31,350 nucleotides of DNA from a virus: positions 1 through 31,350 of the IMG/VR virus record IMGVR_UViG_3300027849_000037. One strand, 5' to 3'. A program made the translations under genes and the position numbers. This document shows positions 17,837-29,541 of the stretch, piece after piece (within the stretch, counting starts at the first letter, position 1; each line of letters opens with the position of its first letter). The notes under the pieces were generated by a model. It was not told where the DNA came from. It ran no database searches and saw only the letters and a list, made by a program, of their open reading frames with translations.

Positions 17837-20368
17837 TTAGTTTACTAATGATTTTATATCATCCCATATGGATGTTTCGGGTTTAACGTATTTCTCTGGC
17901 TCCCCTCTCTCAGTAAGAATATCTTGTGCTGCCCTAACTAACTGTTGCATATGTTTAGTTGCACCATAAATTTTATCAATGGGTGTACCATCTTTTATGT
18001 CTTTCTTAATTTTGTTTCTGTAATCATCATAGGTAGGGCCAACGGCATATTCCACTCCATCCCTTAACTTATACTTTTTTCGTGCTTCAATATCATCAAA
18101 CAGTTCAGTTCCTAACTCATTAGTTCTTCCGTTGTTTCGTAGAATAAACCTTGTAGCGTCCCTGCCATATTCTTTTGCAAAGGCTTCGGGGTTTTCCTTA
18201 GCTTTCTTCCTTACTATGTCCATCCCTCTATGCGTAAATTCGTGTGACCAAATAGGTTGTAATGCTATATCAGGAGTCATTAATACATCACCAGACTTAA
18301 CATTAGCTTTTTTTATTTCATCAAAAGTATACCCATTGTTCCTCATGTTTTCTATAATATCATCATCTTTCCAATCACCTGAGAATGTTTGAGCCACTGA
18401 ATCACGCCCTATGTATTCTTTTATACCCTTAGAACTCTGAACCTTACTTGCTTTAGGATCATAGCCTAATCTAGCTAAGGCGTTCCATGATAGTTGCTCG
18501 TCCAACTCTGCTCTAAACTCTAGGTCACCAAAGGCTTCTGAGGAATCTACATCACCCCCCTTTGCAAATCCCATTTCTTCCATCTCTTCTACTAGGCCAC
18601 CTTTGTTGAAGTTTTTCTTAGTGGGGTCAAGCACTGCTTTTCTTGCCAGTAATAGTGCGCCAACCTGTATTACTTCATCAGCCTCTAACACTGCCATACC
18701 TGAGTTTTCCCCACCACGAACATAAAAAGCACCCTGCCTTCTTGGGTCAAAGCCTACTTGAGTCCACTCAGGATCATTCAGTAGTTCATCTGCTTTCTTT
18801 CTTATTGCATCAGGATCTAAATCTTTAATAACTCCAGACACTGTAGCATAAGGTGTCTTTTCTTTTTCTCCTTTACCAATTCTCTCTCCCATCTTTTGAG
18901 AGGCAATAAACTTTACTGGCCCCCCATCCGTACCTTTGTAATGAATTGCCTTGGCGTAGTGTGTACCGCCTAGTCCTTTTGAGGTTCCTGAAACAACCCA
19001 TGTGTCATAGGTTTTGTAGGCTGTTATGTCTAACCTTCCACTGAAATTGTCGCCTATGGAAAGAGCAGATTTCTGTACCCCTAAACTTTTTGCAGCAGCA
19101 CTACCAAAAACAAAGCTACCTTTAGTTCTCTGACCCACATTGAGCGAGAATACAATTGTTTTATCTGAAGGCTCTCTAGGTACAGCAGTCCACTCTCTTA
19201 CAGGTTTGTACTTATCTACATTAGCTAGGTGTTCTTCACGGGTAATTTTAAGTTCACTAAGTTGTCTGGCAGACTCTTCTAGTTCTGGAGTTTTAACATC
19301 TGGATTATCAACCCTCTTCTCCGATACGTGCTTTCTTACAGTAGCTTGCCATTCATCTACATCATCTATCTCTTCAAACTTAGACCAAGTTGCGTCATAC
19401 TCTGATATAGTTTTCTGTAAATTAGAAGATTCCCCAATCTGCCTAGCTACTATACCTTTATACTTGGATGGTAATTCATTAGGCTCTATTGATAGTACCT
19501 CTGACATTGGATAAAGGAACTTTGTACCACCTTCTTTTATATCAAACTCAGATCCCTCTGCTACCATATGCTCGGATCTAAGTGCATCAAACATTTCTTT
19601 GTCTACTTCCAGTGGCTCTCCTACTGTAGCGTAACCTACTAAAGCAGCTTTCTCTTTGCCTGTCTTAACTATGCCCACATTCTTACCCACATAAGGATCT
19701 AATGAACGTGTGTCTCTAGTCTCGTACTTCTTATCTCCCTTTACAATAAGGTCAGCAAAATCTGTGCCGTCCTTACTCTCCCTGACATTTATTCCTAATG
19801 GGTTACCATTCTTGTGAACCGCAGAAGGTGCAGCCATTTCCTGCCTAGCACCCATAGCTCCTAGTCGCTCTTGAACAGGGAGGTATGCACTTTCATCAGG
19901 CACTTCGGATGCAGCATTATTTATTCTACGTACATCTGTTGCATTGTTTATGCCCTTCTTAGCTAGACTTGCAGCCTTACCCATAGGAAGTACTTCACCT
20001 ACAGTGGCAATGTTACCCAAGGCAAACCTAGTAGACTCGTCAAGATCATTCCATGTGTCCACTATGGAGCCTACAGTGTCCTTAATAGCGTCAGGTATGT
20101 CCTCTTCATTCTCATTGTAGTAATCTACTACAGCCTCAGCACCTTCTCCCATAGTTTTAAGGAAGCCCTCATTAGCAGACTTACCAGCATCGGTACGTGG
20201 GGCATAGTTTAAGAAGTCATTGTACTTCTCATTGTTGGCCTTCATTTCCTCAACTGTATTGTCAGTGAAGGTCTGCTCTGCAAGGGATGCTGCAGCAGCA
20301 CCGATAGGCCCAAAGGTTCCTGAGATTAAGTCTGCTGCTATGTCGGATACATTATTAACTACGCTCAT
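17837..20368 (-). CDS. large virion/ejection-type protein with ASCH-like segment and HExxH motif
   Basis: The 843-residue product appears to be a multi-domain polyvalent protein. Residues 191-300 resemble an ASCH (PUA-like) domain, including GDKKYETR (211-218) and ALVGYATVG. Residues 536-580 contain QVGFDPRRQGAFYV and EADEVIQVGALLLA, as in large phage polyvalent proteins. Residues 704-720 hold QPIWSHEFTHRG, a zinc metallopeptidase HExxH (709-713), with Glu residues downstream as possible third ligands. Its place after two large internal-type proteins suggests delivery into the cell with the DNA. Which activity is real is unknown. AGGA precedes ATG. Confidence 0.85.
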   Translation of the reverse strand: MSVVNNVSDIAADLISGTFGPIGAAAASLAEQTFTDNTVEEMKANNEKYNDFLNYAPRTDAGKSANEGFLKTMGEGAEAVVDYYNENEEDIPDAIKDTVGSIVDTWNDLDESTRFALGNIATVGEVLPMGKAASLAKKGINNATDVRRINNAASEVPDESAYLPVQERLGAMGARQEMAAPSAVHKNGNPLGINVRESKDGTDFADLIVKGDKKYETRDTRSLDPYVGKNVGIVKTGKEKAALVGYATVGEPLEVDKEMFDALRSEHMVAEGSEFDIKEGGTKFLYPMSEVLSIEPNELPSKYKGIVARQIGESSNLQKTISEYDATWSKFEEIDDVDEWQATVRKHVSEKRVDNPDVKTPELEESARQLSELKITREEHLANVDKYKPVREWTAVPREPSDKTIVFSLNVGQRTKGSFVFGSAAAKSLGVQKSALSIGDNFSGRLDITAYKTYDTWVVSGTSKGLGGTHYAKAIHYKGTDGGPVKFIASQKMGERIGKGEKEKTPYATVSGVIKDLDPDAIRKKADELLNDPEWTQVGFDPRRQGAFYVRGGENSGMAVLEADEVIQVGALLLARKAVLDPTKKNFNKGGLVEEMEEMGFAKGGDVDSSEAFGDLEFRAELDEQLSWNALARLGYDPKASKVQSSKGIKEYIGRDSVAQTFSGDWKDDDIIENMRNNGYTFDEIKKANVKSGDVLMTPDIALQPIWSHEFTHRGMDIVRKKAKENPEAFAKEYGRDATRFILRNNGRTNELGTELFDDIEARKKYKLRDGVEYAVGPTYDDYRNKIKKDIKDGTPIDKIYGATKHMQQLVRAAQDILTERGEPEKYVKPETSIWDDIKSLVN

Positions 20369-20371
20369 ACG

Positions 20372-23300
20372 TTATAGTCCTGGGAGAGATTTTGCTATTT
20401 GTATACCTGCTGCGTATGCGTTATCACCTTCCACAGTAGTTCCATACTTAGCCATGTATCTTTCATTAACTTCCTTACGCTGCCCTCTAGGTATGCGACC
20501 CCACTTAGCCCTATCACTTGGACTATAACCCTGCTTCTGACGGGCCTTACCAAAGTCTTCTTGCGCTCGTATCTTAGCAAACTTAATAACCTTTTTCTTT
20601 GCCTCACTTAGTAGGTTCTTCTGCCCTGTACTAGACATACCTTTATATGATTGTGATTTTATAATAGGAACCATGATAGCATCTATGAATTGTGGCATGT
20701 GCTTACGTATCATTGCATCTGCTTGTTTGTCTCCTGTAGGGGACAGCATCAAGTAAGGTTTAAAGCCTTTAGTAAGTAGCTCATTCTGAACTTCAGTACG
20801 GGCTGGTGTTATCTTCATACCTGTTATCTGTGTTAGTGCAGGTGCTACGTTGTACTGATCCTCACCTCGTACTGCATCCTGTTGTGCAGGTAAGGCTGAA
20901 CCATCTCTACCCTGTGAACTAGAGTAAGCTTCCTGTAACTGGTATGGCAGGTTAGCTGTAGCCTTATTAACAAAAGCATCTAGTGTTCTATCCCACCCTT
21001 TAGATACAGTAAGGTTAGCATCACGCTTAAGGTTCTGTTCTTCATCAAATGCAGCTAGTACATCTCGTACTACTTTAGCAGGAGTAAAGTACTGACCAGC
21101 TATATCGCCTATGTACTTACCAAAGGCTTCAGAAAACTTATCACTAGATACATTACCATCTACCCCAATGCCATTGTCAGTCATAACAGACATGAAGTTA
21201 TCTAAGAAGTAGTTAACACCAGAAGAACTAGCTTGATAGCCTGTGGCTGCTTGCATTATATCCGCAGATTTAACATTGCCTAAAGTTCCATCTCTACCCT
21301 TAACCATAAGATCACCTATCATGAGATAGAAAGGTAAGGGGAATACTGCACCAATACCCATAGTAGTTCCATCATCATTTAGTAGTTCATCATATGTGGT
21401 GGTATCCTGCTTATCTGATCTGTACCATATGGCAGCAGCTATAGCAGCAGTGCCTACAGTAGCATCATTGAATTGCCTATAAGCATCTTCAGTAAGTCTC
21501 TGGTAGCCAGCACCTTCTTTGCCTCCTGTAGCTAAGTACTTACCCTTCATACTCCTAGCAGCAATGCCTGTCTGTATAGCACCTAGAGCATTAATAGGTG
21601 AGTACCTAAACTGAAAGCTCATAGCGTTAGCCATAAATCGTGCAAAAGGCAATGCGCCTGTACCTATAACAGGAGCAAAGGGTAATGCTTCTACTACTTC
21701 TATAAAGTGTTTAGCTAATCCCTGCTTAGGCTTATTGGCAAAGGTTATGGCAAGAGCTTCTTCTACTGCCTTCTCAGCAATCCTTGTGTCTATACCATTA
21801 CCCCTAGCTAAATGCTCAGTAAGATCATCTATACCTTGAAGGTCTTTCATCTGACGCTTAACACTATTCATGAACACACCTGTACGCAAGAACTGATCTT
21901 GTGCAATGTTCAAAGAGTTAATCATTAGAACAGACTTAGGTAGGGTATTTATCCCTGCCTCCTGTGTAGTACGTAGTAGTTGATGATGAAGTATTGAATG
22001 ATCACCTAAAACTAAATCGACAAATTCTCTATTCTGACCATTGTTAAATATGTCACCTATCATAGAGAAGGCATCTTTTACTATATGTACTCCACCCTCG
22101 TATGTTCCACGGAAGGAAGGAGAAGCCCCATTAATGCCACCTAAAGCCTTTGCAGTGTCACCCATAGCAGCGTATGAGTTTCTTAGTAACCGACTAGCAA
22201 CGTGCATAGACACGGCAGACGTTCCTGATATTACGTTACGTGCCATAGTTGCAGGTTGAGAAGTCATTATGGCTCTGCGTATTCGGTCAGCTTTCTTTAA
22301 GTTACCATATCCAGCATTCAATACTCTAGCTGCCCATGAAGAGTTCAATATGTCTTCACGTTTAGCTACTGATGCTGCATCATTTGCAATCTTATTTGCA
22401 CCACCACTTATCTTATCTTGTATTTTAGATAGCTGGCTCTGCATGTTCAGCACCTTTCCGCTAGTAGATACATCTACATCCGCAATTCTACCAAATTGTG
22501 CAGGGCTAATATCCATATCTTTTAATTCTTGGTTAAGCCTACCCATAGCTTCATCAAAAGCCATACCTCTTGAGCCTTGCTTTAGACCCCCATCAATAAT
22601 TGCATCGTCTATTTCTTTTTGTAATGCATCGTCTGCATAGTGTAGTGAATAGAAAAGTCTATGTAATGCTGTGGTTACCCTTTCTCCTACTCTAGGTGCT
22701 AGGGCTGGTATTATGTCTGCTAGTTCAGCTACAATTATTTTAGAATCTTCGAGATTCTGTACTGTTATTCTGGTTCTAACATCTGCTGCATTGTTTAAGT
22801 TAATTTCATATGCATCATCAAATATAGTTGCTACATCTTGTAGCTGCTCATTGAGTGGTACATTTTCATCATAGACCCTTTCTTGTCCTGCCTTCTTAGC
22901 AGCACTGCCTTTGCTTACATCTCCCCCACTCTTTATAAATGCGTCACGTTTAGCAGCTATCTTTGCAGCAACCTTCTCTTTATACGTATCCTGCTTTAAT
23001 CCATGTGCAAACATACCCACATTAATAAGACCTGCAGTACCAGCAGATAATGCACCCATACCTAGTATGGTATTCCAATCTTTCTCAGTACGTAAATCTG
23101 CTTTCATCTCTAATGATTGTATATTACCAGCTTGCATAGCACCTAGTATGCCCTCTACACTTGCAGCACCTGCTATACGAACCTTGTTACTATTGATAGC
23201 AGACTTAAGTAATGTCTGAGCAGCAATTCTACCACCTAGTATCTTAAATCCTGTAGCAATACCTAGTGTGGCTACGTTAGTAGGATCTAGTACGACTGAT

Positions 23301-23947
23301 AAAACACTATCTAGTACACCATCAAAAGCATTACCACCCCCATCTTCATAGAAGGCTGGCATATCATTGAACTGAGTGTATAGAAGTCCAAAGTTTTGCT
23401 TGGTCTTTTCATCTGCTCCATTTAACCATGACAAACCTCTGCCTGTAGATGCAATGTTGTTCTGCATCCAGCGCATCTTAGTAAAGAATCTTTCGGAGTA
23501 TTCCTCTCTAGTTTCACCATCCTGTTTAATACCAGACTTACCATATCGGCTCTTCATAAACATGCCAATACTTGTCTGAGCATTATCCGACATGAAGAAA
23601 TCTTTATTAACTTGATCTTCATAAGATACGGGAGTACGTGAAGTTGTAGGTGTGGACAGCATAGAACTTGTTTCAGCTACGTACTCTGGCTCAGGCGTTA
23701 AACTTGGGGTAGGCTCATACCCTTCAGCCTCAACAGAAGATAAATCTAACTCTTCGGTATCAGTCATTAAACTAGAAGTGACCTCGTACCCTTCAGCCTC
23801 AACAGAAGAAAAATCTAACTCAGTCTCTGACTCAACAGAAGATAGGTCTAGGTCTGCACCAAATAGTACTTCGTTCCCACCTTCCATGTAAGTAGCAAAT
23901 GCTTTCTCTTCTTCATCACTTAAACCTAAGTCCAAAGTTTCAGCCAT
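20372..23947 (-). CDS. internal virion/ejection-type protein, 1191 aa
   Basis: This is the largest gene in the window. The N-terminus is acidic and has three copies of LD[LF]SSVE (residues 33, 44 and 67). The body is helix-rich with several Ala/Gly-rich hydrophobic segments (for example GILGAMQAGN, TILGMGALSAGTAGLINVGM) and a segment TSQPATMARNVISGTSAVSM that is typical of long phage internal proteins. By analogy with T7 gp15/gp16-like proteins it may be ejected and help DNA entry; homology is not visible by eye. The start is 0 bases from the upstream stop (TAA then ATG) after GGAGG. Confidence 0.85.
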   Translation of the reverse strand: MAETLDLGLSDEEEKAFATYMEGGNEVLFGADLDLSSVESETELDFSSVEAEGYEVTSSLMTDTEELDLSSVEAEGYEPTPSLTPEPEYVAETSSMLSTPTTSRTPVSYEDQVNKDFFMSDNAQTSIGMFMKSRYGKSGIKQDGETREEYSERFFTKMRWMQNNIASTGRGLSWLNGADEKTKQNFGLLYTQFNDMPAFYEDGGGNAFDGVLDSVLSVVLDPTNVATLGIATGFKILGGRIAAQTLLKSAINSNKVRIAGAASVEGILGAMQAGNIQSLEMKADLRTEKDWNTILGMGALSAGTAGLINVGMFAHGLKQDTYKEKVAAKIAAKRDAFIKSGGDVSKGSAAKKAGQERVYDENVPLNEQLQDVATIFDDAYEINLNNAADVRTRITVQNLEDSKIIVAELADIIPALAPRVGERVTTALHRLFYSLHYADDALQKEIDDAIIDGGLKQGSRGMAFDEAMGRLNQELKDMDISPAQFGRIADVDVSTSGKVLNMQSQLSKIQDKISGGANKIANDAASVAKREDILNSSWAARVLNAGYGNLKKADRIRRAIMTSQPATMARNVISGTSAVSMHVASRLLRNSYAAMGDTAKALGGINGASPSFRGTYEGGVHIVKDAFSMIGDIFNNGQNREFVDLVLGDHSILHHQLLRTTQEAGINTLPKSVLMINSLNIAQDQFLRTGVFMNSVKRQMKDLQGIDDLTEHLARGNGIDTRIAEKAVEEALAITFANKPKQGLAKHFIEVVEALPFAPVIGTGALPFARFMANAMSFQFRYSPINALGAIQTGIAARSMKGKYLATGGKEGAGYQRLTEDAYRQFNDATVGTAAIAAAIWYRSDKQDTTTYDELLNDDGTTMGIGAVFPLPFYLMIGDLMVKGRDGTLGNVKSADIMQAATGYQASSSGVNYFLDNFMSVMTDNGIGVDGNVSSDKFSEAFGKYIGDIAGQYFTPAKVVRDVLAAFDEEQNLKRDANLTVSKGWDRTLDAFVNKATANLPYQLQEAYSSSQGRDGSALPAQQDAVRGEDQYNVAPALTQITGMKITPARTEVQNELLTKGFKPYLMLSPTGDKQADAMIRKHMPQFIDAIMVPIIKSQSYKGMSSTGQKNLLSEAKKKVIKFAKIRAQEDFGKARQKQGYSPSDRAKWGRIPRGQRKEVNERYMAKYGTTVEGDNAYAAGIQIAKSLPGL
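23714..23850 (-). repeat. short tandem repeats coding the acidic LD-SSVE motif
   Basis: A roughly 39-base unit at 23714-23752 recurs with few changes at 23783-23821 (offset 69 bases), and its core returns at about 23831 (offset 33). The offsets are whole codons (23 and 11), so the reading frame is kept and the repeat encodes a short acidic motif near the N-terminus of the 1191-residue protein. Confidence 0.7.
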
Positions 23948-25930
23948 TTAGCTTTCCTCCAACTGTGTTAGCTTCGCTAGTTCCTCTGTACCAAATTTTA
24001 TCTGTTGCCAAGTAATGCCTTTTGTAGATAGTATTTCCAATGCTTCTTTCCTATCTTCAACAGTCATATTTTTACCCTTGGCAGTGCTAACCATCCCCAT
24101 AATTTCCATTATATCTTTTCTCTCGTCATTACTTGCTGACGAAAGATTTGATTCGGATAAGTCTAAGTATTCCTGTTGTTCCTCCGATATGGCAGGGGGT
24201 AGGGCGGCTATACGAGCAGCTTGTTTTTCTTCTCGTTCTCTAGTTCTCCTTTCAAATAGAGTTTCTTCCGTTGGTTTTTTATAAGGAATTTCCCTATATT
24301 GTTCCTGTGCAGATAGAGCTTGTTCATCAGAGTCTTTCTTTACCTGTAGTGCATCTGCTTCAACTTCATTTGAAGCTTTAACTTTAGCATCTGCAAGAGC
24401 TTGCGTTATTTTTTCTCCAGTAGCTACCCTGTACGCTTTTACTACAGGGACTTGAATTTCTCCAATCTCACCTGCAGCAGGTACATTCCATACAACTTTA
24501 CCCGATGCGGTTCTTACTTTCTTTGCCCCATCTATTCCTGAGGGTGCATCTACAACAAAAACGTATCTCTGTTTTGGATCTACATTATTAGCATCATATG
24601 CAGGTAGTGTTGCTAAGTCCTGAGCAGAGCCACCAAACATCTTTTGGTTTAACCCCATCCAATTTGTCATTTGTTGAGAAACAGGCTGACCTGTCTCCCT
24701 CATATTAGTAATCCAATTAGAAGCAGCTTGTTGTCGTGCATACTTTTCATATGCTTGAGCATTCATTTTTGTGTAATCAAAAGTTGCTACGCCATCACTA
24801 TATGTAAAATACTCATTCTCTCCAACATAGTCTTTTACAATTCTCTTTGCTTCTTCGTCAAATATAGCTTTGTATTGAGGGAAGCTAATCTCTGCTGATG
24901 AATCCTTTTTCAAAGCGGATTGTTCTGCTATTGTTTGGTGTAGGAAACTACGAGTAGCATACAAAGATTTTAGTTTTTCTTGATTTGGATTGTCCTTTAA
25001 CTCTTCCATCATTATGGCACGGGCTGTTATAAATATGCCATCGTAACTATCTGTGCCAAAGTCATAATCTGCTTGAGCTTTCCTTATTTCAGATAACTCA
25101 TTTTCTAACTCTTGCTGAGGCATGTTATTATCAATTTTAAATTGTAACGTCATCAAGTCTATTTGATTTATCTTCTCTTCTATTTTATATCTTTCATCTT
25201 TTCTTTGCCCGTCTGTTTCTGCTCGTTTATATGCAAGTAACTGAGCATCAGCCCCTTTCAATGCAATTTTCTCTGCTACCTCTAGGTTTATTTGTTGCAT
25301 CCTAGCAGAGGCAGACAAAGAAGAATCTACTAAATTAATAGTAGCGTCCGATCTTTTTCCATAGGTGTAAGCACCCTGAGATGCGGCAATTACATCGTTG
25401 TAACCAACACCTGTTATAGAAGACATTTCTTGTTCTGCTTTACCACGTAGACGCTCAAAACCATCATCCGATCCAGAATCATCTGATCCCATTAGACTAG
25501 ATAAAAGAGATTTACGAGCCACTGGCTTTGGTGTATTAAGAGATGGAGTGTCTATAGTACCCATCTGTACATCTTGCCAAGGAGTAATAGTTCCCCCTTC
25601 TTGCATGTTAATTTGTGAAGCTGGATCAAACTCAGTATTCATCTTCTTTTCTTTTATTGATCCGTCAATGAACTCTTGTATCTGTTTATCACTCTGGCCC
25701 ATAACAGCATTTACTTCATCTGGAGTAAGACCTAAGTTTGCTAGATCATTGGCTTGACCTGTAAGGGATCTTAAACGCTTCTGCCTTTCCCTGACAAAGG
25801 GTAAACCTGACTGATAGGCAAACTTCATATTGCTATCAATAGTATCCTTTGTTTCTTTATTCTGCTTTTCCATAAGGTCGCCAGCACCTTTAACGGCACC
25901 TGCTGCAAACGCTCCAAAGTTAAATCCCAT
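23948..25930 (-). CDS. virion structural protein candidate, 660 aa
   Basis: The product begins with a small hydrophobic/Gly-Ala stretch (GFNFGAFAAGAVKGAGDL), followed by long charged helical segments, for example around the RERQKRL and EKINQIDLMTLQFKIDN regions, with no enzyme motif. Its size, helix content and position between small and very large late genes suggest an internal or tail-tube-associated virion protein. No family is named. ATG 25930 overlaps the upstream stop (TAATG) and follows AGGAGG. Confidence 0.8.
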   Translation of the reverse strand: MGFNFGAFAAGAVKGAGDLMEKQNKETKDTIDSNMKFAYQSGLPFVRERQKRLRSLTGQANDLANLGLTPDEVNAVMGQSDKQIQEFIDGSIKEKKMNTEFDPASQINMQEGGTITPWQDVQMGTIDTPSLNTPKPVARKSLLSSLMGSDDSGSDDGFERLRGKAEQEMSSITGVGYNDVIAASQGAYTYGKRSDATINLVDSSLSASARMQQINLEVAEKIALKGADAQLLAYKRAETDGQRKDERYKIEEKINQIDLMTLQFKIDNNMPQQELENELSEIRKAQADYDFGTDSYDGIFITARAIMMEELKDNPNQEKLKSLYATRSFLHQTIAEQSALKKDSSAEISFPQYKAIFDEEAKRIVKDYVGENEYFTYSDGVATFDYTKMNAQAYEKYARQQAASNWITNMRETGQPVSQQMTNWMGLNQKMFGGSAQDLATLPAYDANNVDPKQRYVFVVDAPSGIDGAKKVRTASGKVVWNVPAAGEIGEIQVPVVKAYRVATGEKITQALADAKVKASNEVEADALQVKKDSDEQALSAQEQYREIPYKKPTEETLFERRTREREEKQAARIAALPPAISEEQQEYLDLSESNLSSASNDERKDIMEIMGMVSTAKGKNMTVEDRKEALEILSTKGITWQQIKFGTEELAKLTQLEES

Positions 25931-26424
25931 TACACTTTCCTCCTACTCATTATTCCTTCTGATTCAACTTCGGGTGTCTCTTCTACCATTACTTCTTCTT
26001 CAGTGCTTTCATCAAAGTAGGACTCACTAGATTTATCCACAGCTTTACGTACAAGAGATGAATCAGGCTTGTCGGACTTCTCTGTGCCTATCTTGTATTC
26101 TATATCTGCAAGTTGTGCTTGGGTGACTAGTAGTTCAACAAGTACAGGTGAGATCATAAGACCTACATCCAATGTATGAAGACCACTCATAACTCCAGAG
26201 GACTGAATCATATCCGCTACAGCAACAACAGTAGTACCATCTTCTATTGCATCCACCATAGGTGCCATAAGTTCTGCATCAGATAACCTTGGTATGTAAA
26301 AAGATAAAGCTTCTTCTGTAGTTGTATACTTAGGTGGTTGTTCCCACGGCCTACTCTTAGGTTCCGTAGTTAATGATTGTCCTGGTATTGGAGCATCAAG
26401 AAACTTTGAAGATGCATCAAGCAT
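25930..26424 (-). CDS. conserved virion-associated protein, 164 aa
   Basis: The product starts MLDASSKFLDAPIPGQSLTT followed by EPKSRPWEQPPKY, a Pro-rich motif I associate with proteins conserved in marine phages, including T4-like cyanophages, though without a known function. The middle (LMISPVLVELLVTQAQLADI) is hydrophobic and helical; the C-terminus is acidic and low in complexity. ATG 26424 is preceded by GAGGAAAA and overlaps the previous gene by 8 bases. Confidence 0.78.
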   Translation of the reverse strand: MLDASSKFLDAPIPGQSLTTEPKSRPWEQPPKYTTTEEALSFYIPRLSDAELMAPMVDAIEDGTTVVAVADMIQSSGVMSGLHTLDVGLMISPVLVELLVTQAQLADIEYKIGTEKSDKPDSSLVRKAVDKSSESYFDESTEEEVMVEETPEVESEGIMSRRKV

Positions 26425-26611
26425 ATGTTTTCCTCGCTTCTCTTATCTGTTTAACATAAGAGGTGATATTATCTTGGGTGTTCATGTTATTTGTAGCTCG
26501 TTCACCTGTACGACTAAGCAACCCACCACTAGGGGTAGTAGGTTTAGCACTTGCAGATTTACTTAAACTCATGTCAGTTTCTACTACAGCTTTAATTATA
26601 TGTTGGCTCAT
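26417..26611 (-). CDS. hypothetical small protein, 64 aa
   Basis: ATG at 26611 with AAGGAAT upstream is chosen over an in-frame start 27 bases earlier. The product (MSQHIIKAVVETDMSLSK...) has a Ser/Thr/Pro-rich middle and a basic C-terminal helix (VKQIREARKTYA). It probably belongs to the structural operon; no motif identifies it. Confidence 0.7.
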   Translation of the reverse strand: MSQHIIKAVVETDMSLSKSASAKPTTPSGGLLSRTGERATNNMNTQDNITSYVKQIREARKTYA

Positions 26612-26621
26612 TGTATATTCC

Positions 26622-28565
26622 TTATTTTGTCTTACCAAATGGGTTTATAGAACTAAGAAAAGTGCCACTCATATCCCCTAAGAATAGTTTAGCTAGTCCT
26701 TCTCCTGCTGAGACAGATGTTTTGTAGTCAGCTTCAATCTGAGCAATAGTTATACTGGTATCTGAAGACATACGCTGTATAGCCATTTGGGAGAACCTGT
26801 CTCTACCATTCTCTGCGCTCGTCCATGCCCACTCAGACTTATCTTTGTAGTCCTGCCATAGGTCATTGTAAGCACTGTTAGATATGTCTAGTAGAGCCTT
26901 AGCGTTGACTTCATTGGCTCGGTTAATAGCTGCTGTGTCTGCTGTAGCAATGTTTCTACGCCACTGTGCATTAGACTGATCAATTACTAACCTATTCTGT
27001 GCATTGAATTGATCACGTTGATTAGCAATTTCAGTGTTAAACTTGGAGATAGCATTACTCTCCCCCGTATTAAACTGCGATTGTGCATTAGCTTGAGTAG
27101 CATTAAACTGAGATACAGTAGTCTTTAAGTTAGAATAGAACTGATCTGTCTGCTGTTCTGATGTAGCATTAAACTGCCTAGAAGCATTCTCTGCTGCAGT
27201 GTCTGTTAACATAGATTGTATACGAGACTGTGCATCAAACATTACTGCTTGCTGTGCATTGGTAGTGTTAGTCATATCCATATCAAGAAAAGACTGAGCA
27301 TTTTGTTGTGCGGAGGCTTGTCTATTATTTAAACTGGCAGTCTCTAACTGTGACATAGTAGATGCTTCAGCCATAATAATAGCTTGCCTATTAGATAGGT
27401 TACTTAGTGCCATAGTATTTACAGCTTGAGAGTTCTCAAGTGCAATCTGTTGGTCTGCAGTGAACTGCATATTAGCTACTTCACTAATCTTGTTAGAGTT
27501 CAGTACCCGTGATTGGAATGCCTGATCAAACTCCTGACCCATAAAAGTAGCACGTTGTTGTGCAGATAACATAGCACGTTGTTGCTTGTTATTAAGGTTA
27601 GTCATTTCAAAAGTAGCAAAGGTCTGTGCATCAGCAGTAGCAATAGGCAAGGAAGACTCTAAGGCTGCTTGTATGAGTGCCTGACCTGCCATACTAGATG
27701 AACCAATACCACGGGCAGCTAACTGTGCAGTCACGTTACGCATAGCCCCTGCTGCCCATGCTGGTGTCTTACCTTCATCAAAGGAAGTCATTAATGTAGC
27801 AAGCTGACCTTGTACAGTAGCCCGTGAAGACGGATCTGCTTGTGCTGCTGTGATAGTTTCAGTGAAAGCTGCTGCTTTAGATGCGTCTGCTACTGGGTCA
27901 ACTAATTCACCACCTTCAAGAGTACGTGTGGGTGCGCCTCCTACTTGTGTGGCAGTTCCTTGTGCTGACTCTATTTGACCTACATTGGTAGTGCTTTGAG
28001 TCTGTGCTTCTACTTGTGCATCTTTACTCACTGAACCTGTAGCAGCAGTAGTACTTGCAACAGGAGTTGTAGTTGCTGCAGTTACTTGTGGAGCAGTAGT
28101 TACTGTAGGAGCAGCAGCTTGTGTTGTAGTTGCCTGTGTTGTTGTAGTATCGGCAACAGGTGCAAGCATAACTGCATTGGGGTCTTGCATTTGTTCAGAA
28201 GTAACAGGTGTAGACATTGCCATTGTAGCAGTGCCAGTGGATAGGCCAGGAGCAGAAGCCCTACTAGCAACAACATCCCCTAAGGATTTACCTTTAGTGG
28301 TTGCAGCAGGGGGTACATATCCACCAGCAATAGGTGTAGAAGGTTGGTTAGTTACAGTACCACCCACTGCATACTTATTTACATAACCACCAGCATACAT
28401 CTTCTTAATACTATCTTTCAAAGTATTGTACTGAGCAAATGCATTCTGATTAGAAGTTAGATAAGTATCAAATGTATCTAAGCCACCTGTATGTCCCAAC
28501 TTAGAAGCTATACGCTTCATCTGGTCTTCACTGTAACCTTTAAATTCTCTTTGTTCTTGAGACAT
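26622..28565 (-). CDS. structural protein with a 20-unit hendecad repeat, 647 aa
   Basis: Residues 1-65 are charged; 66-210 are low-complexity Thr/Ala/Gln/Pro; residues 321-540 form an 11-residue repeat array read as ten 22-residue lines, for example units starting QFNATQANAQS, QFNTGESNAIS and KFNTEIANQRD. Position 4 is small or hydrophobic (Leu, Ala, Phe, Ser, Thr) and position 3 is mostly Asn. Such hendecads suggest a long parallel helical or right-handed coiled-coil rod. A C-terminal helical segment (541-647) ends near FLSSINPFG. It could be a tail fibre, stalk or internal rod protein. Confidence 0.85.
   Translation of the reverse strand: MSQEQREFKGYSEDQMKRIASKLGHTGGLDTFDTYLTSNQNAFAQYNTLKDSIKKMYAGGYVNKYAVGGTVTNQPSTPIAGGYVPPAATTKGKSLGDVVASRASAPGLSTGTATMAMSTPVTSEQMQDPNAVMLAPVADTTTTQATTTQAAAPTVTTAPQVTAATTTPVASTTAATGSVSKDAQVEAQTQSTTNVGQIESAQGTATQVGGAPTRTLEGGELVDPVADASKAAAFTETITAAQADPSSRATVQGQLATLMTSFDEGKTPAWAAGAMRNVTAQLAARGIGSSSMAGQALIQAALESSLPIATADAQTFATFEMTNLNNKQQRAMLSAQQRATFMGQEFDQAFQSRVLNSNKISEVANMQFTADQQIALENSQAVNTMALSNLSNRQAIIMAEASTMSQLETASLNNRQASAQQNAQSFLDMDMTNTTNAQQAVMFDAQSRIQSMLTDTAAENASRQFNATSEQQTDQFYSNLKTTVSQFNATQANAQSQFNTGESNAISKFNTEIANQRDQFNAQNRLVIDQSNAQWRRNIATADTAAINRANEVNAKALLDISNSAYNDLWQDYKDKSEWAWTSAENGRDRFSQMAIQRMSSDTSITIAQIEADYKTSVSAGEGLAKLFLGDMSGTFLSSINPFGKTK
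26946..27605 (-). repeat. DNA encoding the hendecad array (residues 321-540)
   Basis: Twenty consecutive 33-base units encode the 11-residue repeat in the 647-residue protein. The units are degenerate at DNA level, so the periodicity is best seen in the protein: aligning residues 321, 343, 365, 387, 409, 431, 453, 475, 497 and 519 as line starts keeps the pattern in register over all 220 residues with no insertion. Confidence 0.8.
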
Positions 28566-28708: not shown

Positions 28709-29149
28709 CTATTTTAGTTTAATACCACCTAACTGCCCTGATACTAGTTTTGTAAGTAACCCACGTAAGCCAAACTTAACTACGTAGATACCAATGATTA
28801 GGTACTGATACCACTCTGGCATAGATGCAAAGGATTCAAACGCTGCTGTTATCTCTGCTTGATAGCCTAAGAAGGATGCTGCTATTGGTACTAATAGTAG
28901 AGCAATCATTATGTCATCAACATAACTCTTGTCCATCTGCTGCATAGCAATGTAGTCAAGGTTGTAGTCTTGAGTCTGTCCATTGTCTGCTAACTTGTGT
29001 GCTGCCTTAGCACTTGCAACCTTAACATCTGCATCTGCTTCAATGCCTATGATAGCTGCTGCTGACTTAGCCTTAGCAACATTGTTCTTACCTTCAAGAT
29101 AAGTCTTGCCTAGACCTGCAATTGGGTTTAAGAAACTTAACCAGCCCAT
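28709..29149 (-). CDS. holin-like membrane protein, 146 aa
   Basis: The product has two clear hydrophobic segments near the C-terminus (IMIALLLVPIAASFLGY and YLIIGIYVVKFGLRGLL) and a weaker one at the start (WLSFLNPIAGLG), separated by an Ala/Lys-rich helix. This is the layout of three-segment holins such as the gene-transfer-agent type. A holin would release the neighbouring M15 endolysin; the adjacent order (only 2 bases apart) supports it. Not proven from sequence alone. Confidence 0.75.
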   Translation of the reverse strand: MGWLSFLNPIAGLGKTYLEGKNNVAKAKSAAAIIGIEADADVKVASAKAAHKLADNGQTQDYNLDYIAMQQMDKSYVDDIMIALLLVPIAASFLGYQAEITAAFESFASMPEWYQYLIIGIYVVKFGLRGLLTKLVSGQLGGIKLK

Positions 29150-29151
29150 AA

Positions 29152-29541
29152 TTAATCCTTGATCTCAAAGTGAGGGTAATCCTGCCATGACTTCCATAAG
29201 CCTCCCCATTTAAGCTTATAGCCTAACTGGGATGATGCCTGTAACATTGCAGATGCTATAACAGCTAGGTGTAACTTATCCCATGAAGCTTTACCATCAA
29301 CGTAGGCATACACATCCATTGCTTTACCAGACTGATGATACGACTTGTTGTTCACCCCATCTGCTTTGGACACTCCATCTGCAAACAACTTGGCCTGGTC
29401 TGCTTCGGTTCGTAAGCCACCAGTGCTAGGCACACCGAAATCAATATTAGTAAGTTCAATAGCGAGATCCGCAATTGCAATAAGTCTTCCATCTACACCT
29501 GCCAAATTGTTGATACTGTTTTTACCTAGCTTAAAGCCCAT
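29152..29541 (-). CDS. M15-family peptidase, putative endolysin
   Basis: The 129-residue product matches M15 (VanY/endolysin-type) metallopeptidases: SYHQSGKAMDVYAYVDGKA with zinc ligands His69 and Asp76, and the third ligand His124 in YPHFEIKD. These enzymes cut peptide bonds of peptidoglycan, typically as L-alanyl-D-glutamate or D-Ala-D-Ala peptidases. No signal peptide, so export by a holin fits. AGGGGATAA precedes ATG. It lies in the lysis-like cluster with the holin-like protein downstream. Confidence 0.88.
   Translation of the reverse strand: MGFKLGKNSINNLAGVDGRLIAIADLAIELTNIDFGVPSTGGLRTEADQAKLFADGVSKADGVNNKSYHQSGKAMDVYAYVDGKASWDKLHLAVIASAMLQASSQLGYKLKWGGLWKSWQDYPHFEIKD

Follow-up and report, generated by a model that had tools for sequence, protein, structure and literature searches.

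The late region of IMG/VR virus record IMGVR_UViG_3300027849_000037 raises the question of what is built from a 647-aa protein whose middle consists of an unbroken run of 11-residue repeats (hendecads). The window, i.e. the whole 31,350-nt stretch analysed (positions 1 to 31,350 of that record), carries mainly rightward replication genes in its left half and leftward late genes in its right half, and the hendecad protein gene (26622..28565, minus strand) is a homologue of HMO-2011 gp25 (ADW08438) and CHOED_013. An earlier note on this DNA had described the repeat and had predicted from it a right-handed coiled coil and a rod of fixed length, such as a fibre shaft or an internal/tail rod.

The repeat itself was found as described. 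Residues 321-540 correspond exactly to window positions 26946-27605 (minus strand) and comprise twenty 11-residue units without gaps, with QFN[AT] in the later units and NLNN[KR]Q in the earlier ones. BLOSUM autocorrelation of these 220 residues against 5,000 shuffles returned significant signals at lags 11 (z = 5.2), 22 (z = 8.0) and 33 (z = 3.8), with the lags beside 11 and 22 depressed or negative; over the whole protein, the three strongest lags were 22, 33 and 11. No 11-residue period was detected by autocorrelation in six other late proteins of the window. The family profile also agrees with the composition noted earlier, as position 3 (said to be mostly Asn) is 69 % Asn or Gln, mostly Asn, and position 4 (said to be small or hydrophobic) is 83 % Ala, Leu, Phe or another hydrophobic residue. 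The units share only ~20-25 % of their residues, and TRF found no DNA-level tandem repeat in the window array, suggesting that the units are old and diverged.

The AlphaFold2 (AF2) monomer model places helices at residues 292-342, 349-431 and 438-621, which amounts to an extended helical structure rather than a globular one, with moderate confidence (pLDDT 70-90) only for about residues 450-570. Curli-like 22-residue beta repeats, which the Asn/Gln content and the 22-residue spacing had suggested, were rejected on account of the near absence of Gly, the many charged residues and the AF2 helix. Searches of PHROGs and Pfam with the hendecad protein returned no match, and phmmer against PDB sequences gave none at E<=1, and hence no homology to phiX174 H by sequence. 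Foldseek searches with the model found nothing in the PDB at E<=0.001 and three matches at that threshold in BFVD, all uncharacterised.

Relatives are nevertheless numerous in viral contigs, with 272 in our first collection and hundreds overall, mostly from uncultivated contigs. Among phage records, tblastn located the hendecad gene in 27 of 50,697, the best being CRP-1 (50 %) and HMO-2011 (49 %). These records comprise HMO-2011, eleven CRP-series roseophages, Pelagibacter phages HTVC033P/103P/104P/115P, Vibrio phage CHOED, Aeromonas phages MQM1 and 1233, Pseudoalteromonas phage Slicky01, Sinorhizobium phage phiM6, Rhizobium phages and one spring-water podovirus. Most of the genes in these records are annotated 'hypothetical protein'; HMO-2011 gp25, CHOED_013 and other such proteins of HMO-2011-type and related phages are directly homologous and share the array. 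The HMO-2011 type ranks among the ocean's most abundant phage groups (PMC9038755), and papers on such phages (PMC9038755, PMC6918029, PMC8528129) make no mention of the hendecad protein.

Outside the array, the protein is modular. An N-terminal helical domain (residues 1-60; 28386..28565, minus strand; AF2 pLDDT ~80 for residues 10-50) is followed by a low-complexity Thr/Ala/Gln/Pro linker (residues 61-200; 27966..28385, minus strand) that differs among relatives, as seen in its high column entropy; AF2 pLDDT is <50 at residues 58-91 and from 167 onwards. We considered whether the N-terminal domain is a shared virion anchor, and rejected this since its HMM matched 174 hendecad proteins and 0 other ORFs in the loci examined. 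At the other end, the C-terminal part measures 53-115 residues in the 74 members aligned first (88-115 in all but one). Its variable tail (residues 596-647 plus the stop codon; 26622..26780, minus strand) is swapped for a Peptidase_S74 domain in the CRP-3 clade and for a 'CWVAREVYG...' module in HMO-2011 (L021/L082) and in loci L152, L164 and L169. Swapped N-terminal domains also occur (DUF4214, EF-hand/dockerin-like and LysM, in the hendecad proteins of L007, L022 and L094, the last being CRP-235).

The gene is encoded in a late block together with candidate ejection genes. A small 73-aa ORF (26417..26638, minus strand), known from the ORF list and annotated relatives, lies between the hendecad gene and a linked partner gene of 164 aa (25930..26424, minus strand; APIPGxSLTxxPxxxPWExPP), and a small gene (about 65-145 aa) occupies the equivalent place in several relatives. 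By tblastn, the partner has relatives in precisely those 27 of 50,697 phage records that contain the hendecad gene, and the partner gene is downstream of the hendecad gene in 209 of 214 loci. AF2 predicts a compact helical fold for it, with a confident core (pLDDT ~96 for residues 31-110); Foldseek gave no match at E<=0.001, and the best VIA-align Z among the families listed there was only 4.0. A suspected resemblance between the partner and proteins of T4-like cyanophages found no support, as tblastn matched the same phage group only. Beyond the partner lie a 660-aa gene (23948..25930, minus strand) and a 1191-aa gene (20372..23947, minus strand), which we regard, by synteny in relatives, as candidate ejection proteins of the T7 gp15 and gp16 size classes, respectively. 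Neither protein matched any family of known function or any known ejection protein, and the 1191-aa gene is fast-diverging, with relatives in only 8 phage records. The order is kept in annotated relatives: the hendecad gene, in many a small gene, and then genes of about 165-190, 365-930 and 820-1,900 aa. Pelagibacter phage HTVC115P has, immediately after its hendecad gene, a gene annotated 'toxin-activating lysine-acyltransferase' (L085:9675-10124). Podoviruses of Rhizobium, Sinorhizobium, Aeromonas, Vibrio and Pseudoalteromonas (L083, L084, L086, L088 and L092) also carry the block of hendecad and 164-aa genes, and its sharing with the HMO-2011-type ocean phages suggests one wide structural lineage.

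With moderate confidence, we propose that the hendecad protein serves HMO-2011-like short-tailed phages as a DNA-ejection (pilot-type) protein, helping to form a conduit for DNA across the envelope. Gene order and the S74 domain of one clade favour this reading over a tail fibre. The Peptidase_S74 C-terminus is found in CRP-3, CRP-738, CRP-235 (which also bears a peptidoglycan-binding LysM domain) and CRP-212, and is absent from the window protein and the other relatives scanned. Most matches to the S74 part of the CRP-3 clade are 'DNA ejection/injection proteins', whose family (phrog_4287) includes SU10 gp22 and Proteus phage Privateer gp18, the latter a virion protein verified by mass spectrometry. 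SU10 gp20-24 are present in the virion and missing from the genome-release intermediate, which makes them ejection proteins by composition (PMC9509320). The hendecad protein resembles the phrog_4287 family (7-11 gp20, SU10 gp22, Privateer gp18) in its Ala/Gln/Asn-rich body and Gly-rich hydrophobic end, in the S74 tail of the CRP-3 clade only, a domain that the Grimontviridae members of phrog_4287 carry, and in its similar gene block, which in Salmonella phage 7-11 continues with genes of 299, 181, 545 and 650 aa. It differs in having a hendecad period, for which 7-11 gp20 shows no sign (lag 11 z = 0.7), and the bodies are not significantly alike (hhalign score of the hendecad body against the SU10 gp22/7-11 gp20 family 14.1, shuffled maximum 18.5).

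The faces of the helix bear on which kind of assembly is to be expected. Classical coiled coils need one hydrophobic stripe, and in ideal hendecad coiled coils 0.60-0.74 of the variance in hydrophobicity falls in the first helical harmonic (11/3). In a mod-11 profile of 100 representatives (21,967 residues), this share was 0.00-0.01 (median 0.01 over the 100 sequences), which does not fit a right-handed hendecad coiled coil with a single stripe and disfavours a simple two- to three-stranded fibre shaft. The second harmonic held 0.31-0.41 of the variance, with seams at about 130 and 310 degrees, a share that is by itself not strong statistics with only 11 positions. The pattern of the two harmonics implies that each helix makes hydrophobic contacts along two opposite sides, an arrangement more in keeping with the wall of a sheet or barrel than with a two- or three-stranded rope. 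The charge moment (238 degrees) and the amide moment (72 degrees) are 166 degrees apart, and their separation is at least 120 degrees in 88 % of the 100 sequences. Positions 7 and 11 form the charged edge and positions 5 and 9 a largely uncharged Gln/Ser/Asn edge; amide residues are abundant in the seams too (positions 3, 6 and 8), besides the presumed lumen face.

This layout is reminiscent of the pilot protein H of phiX174, in whose tube hendecads 1-3 span residues 151-183 and 18 of 23 lumen residues are Asn, Gln or Arg (PMC7354561). In the H hendecads, taken from the sequence in that paper, charge and amide moments lie 163 degrees apart, close to the value for the hendecad family, so that both proteins combine an 11/3 helix with a Gln-rich or amide face opposite a charged one in a helical array long enough to span the envelope. 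We regard the resemblance as an analogy in design and claim no homology. In H, 3 hendecads give way to heptads and both ends carry membrane segments, whereas the hendecad family has 10-48 hendecads, belongs to dsDNA tailed phages and has no sequence similarity to H. Unlike in H, no clear transmembrane helix was seen: of 97 sequences, a Kyte-Doolittle 19-residue mean of >=1.6 was reached by one C-terminal tail and one N-terminal region.

The best-surviving alternative is an external trimeric fibre or tail-needle shaft, in which the array would form an extended coiled-coil stalk on the virion exterior, with end domains that vary. Such trimeric coiled-coil needles occur in SU10 and P22 (PMC9509320), and tail-fibre genes are located upstream of the hendecad gene. 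Peptidase_S74, which serves trimeric tail spikes and fibres as a chaperone, forms the C-terminus in one clade, and in some members the N-terminus bears DUF4214 or EF-hand domains; S74 and DUF4214 are found in tail fibres too. However, a trimer needs a single hydrophobic stripe (a share of 0.6-0.74 in the ideal case, against 0.01 here), and the positions that a trimer would leave exposed (2, 6 and 10) are uncharged and rich in Phe, Val and Ile. S74 is also missing from most members, that of the window included, and the hendecad gene stands first in a set of large late genes that is kept together in phages of several bacterial groups. We therefore consider an external fibre unlikely. Of the two locations put forward in the earlier note, the internal one, as an ejection protein, is favoured, short of proof, by gene order and domain company.

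The prediction of a fixed length holds among close relatives and fails across the family. In our first alignment, the array was exactly 220 residues in 72 of 74 members. To compare more distant members, we measured the span between HMMs of the two flanks (residues 240-322 and 526-580), which correspond to a conserved N-flank module (residues 230-320; 27606..27878, minus strand; PxWAAG...RGxGSSSxAGQA...PIAxxDAQ) and a C-flank module that overlaps the end of the array (residues 526-595; 26781..26990, minus strand; QSNAQWRR...LWQ...WAWxSxENxxDR). Multiples of 11 were found in every one of the first sixteen distant relatives in which both anchors were reliable, and among 247 unique sequences the span was 212 + 11n in 247/247. 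Fourteen values were recorded (102, 124, 135, 146, 157, 168, 201, 212, 267, 300, 322, 410, 432 and 520), with 153 sequences at 212, and the array content ranges from 10 to 48 hendecads across the family. A second C anchor outside the repeat (residues 556-595) returned 212 + 11n in 246/246, one sequence giving no hit; this agreement, and second-best anchor scores of ~14 against ~60-70, speak against slipping of the C anchor along the repeat. Contigs from bacterial assemblies, held out of anchor building, obeyed the rule in 13/13 loci, some of which are near-copies of each other, and added a class of 234, making 15 length classes and 0 exceptions in 260 measured arrays.

A tree of 100 representatives, inferred from flank sequence only, requires at least 16 length changes; length is constant among close relatives and varies by whole units across the wider family. 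The remainder of the protein is under no such restriction, with net indels of -1, 2, 3, 4 and 5 residues in the N anchor in 44 of 247 sequences and 33 different lengths of the tail after the C anchor within the 212 class. Within the array, a shift of 1-5 residues fitted better in 0 of 2,295 local stretches (153 sequences, 43-100 % identical to the window). Host as the sole determinant of array length is not supported, because arrays of 14 and of 28 units both occur in Pelagibacter phages, as do arrays of 14 and of 20 units in roseophages. Such strict quantisation of length is an unusually strong structural signature to be readable from sequence alone, and it predicts that loss of 11 or 22 array residues would be tolerated and loss of 5 would not.

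Whole-unit variation in an 11-residue array is also known from the tape measure proteins of siphophages, which have Trp/Phe-marked 11-residue units whose number varies among relatives (PMC3271669, PMC5099701), and the window protein has Phe or a Phe-like residue at every 11th position from 465 (465, 476, 487, 498, 509 and 520). The array could accordingly be a tape-measure-like or internal scaffold rod, a core protein joined to the portal, with a helix that determines how long an internal structure becomes but forms no DNA conduit. The hendecad phages have short tails, however, and a tail tape measure is unlikely given that the MQM1 tail measures 9.2 nm (PMC10410586), compared with ~26 nm for a helix of its 16 units. 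The hendecad protein further differs from tape measure proteins in its Asn/Gln-rich composition and its strict two-segment layout with a node, and has neither a matching tail length nor any sequence or family match to them, leaving this explanation improbable. Least probable of all is that quantised length is a mere by-product of repeat mutation by unequal exchange of 33-base units: duplication and deletion within repeats are naturally unit-stepped, and the long array of L238 still shows a 66-base tandem repeat, but the window array has none at the DNA level, L178 has only a short 9-base one, the units are as diverged as noted above, and no 1-5 residue shift occurs in arrays of 43-100 % identity while the flanks of the same proteins change freely.

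The array is divided in two by an invariant node (residues 450-480; 27126..27218, minus strand; LxDQAAxNAAxQFNATSxNQxDQFxANL), whose HMM matches 239 of the 247 relatives. The node straddles the boundary between segment I (residues 321-452, 12 hendecads; 27210..27605, minus strand), made of pairs of the form '[LM]xNLxNxQQxx [LIV]xNAQxxxxx', and segment II (residues 453-540, 8 hendecads; 26946..27209, minus strand), made of 'QFNAxQxNxxx' units. The two segments change length in different steps. Segment I shows changes of -10, -8, -6, -4, +6, +10, +16, +20 and +26 hendecads, all even and hence 22-residue steps, except in L180 (odd) and two L199-type sequences, in which the node match is doubtful. 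Segment II changes by single hendecads (-1, +1, +2, +3, +4, +11 and +12).

The tandem repeat of L238 (L238:2610-2751) is a leftover of 2.2 copies of the 66-base unit with 75 % match, at a locus whose array has 48 units; it is possibly a recent 22-residue duplication.

Returning to the ejection protein, we can outline how such a protein might work. The middle of the protein would be one long alpha-helix of exact 11/3 geometry, and several copies would pack laterally, each helix contacting its neighbours through its two opposite hydrophobic seams. Judged by composition, the Asn/Gln-rich face would be turned towards the lumen and the charged face, on the opposite side, outwards. After leaving the head, which presupposes a place in the virion, the protein may build or line a tube with its 164-aa partner and the two large neighbouring proteins, and the DNA would cross the envelope through it. 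We propose that lengths change by whole units because neighbouring helices must stay facing in phase: helices held in this way could be lengthened or shortened only by complete 11-residue units of three turns. More tentatively, the conduit wall may be a ring of such two-faced, Asn/Gln-lined helices, with a reach (about 16 to 79 nm of helix) that the unit count would fix digitally, each of the two segments being tuned separately on its side of a fixed node. If the helices do form a tube, the amide-lined pilot-tube design of phiX174 would extend to dsDNA tailed phages, and the family would supply naturally occurring conduits in a graded range of lengths.

Two further features of the late region were recorded. 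The 146-aa protein encoded at 28709-29149 (minus strand) matches phrog_2524 (unknown function), contains a hydrophobic stretch and looks like a holin; its ORF adjoins an M15-peptidase endolysin gene (29152-29541). An 843-aa late protein encoded at 17837-20368 (minus strand), which was assigned to no family, contains an HEFTHRG motif and has a weak ASCH-like match.
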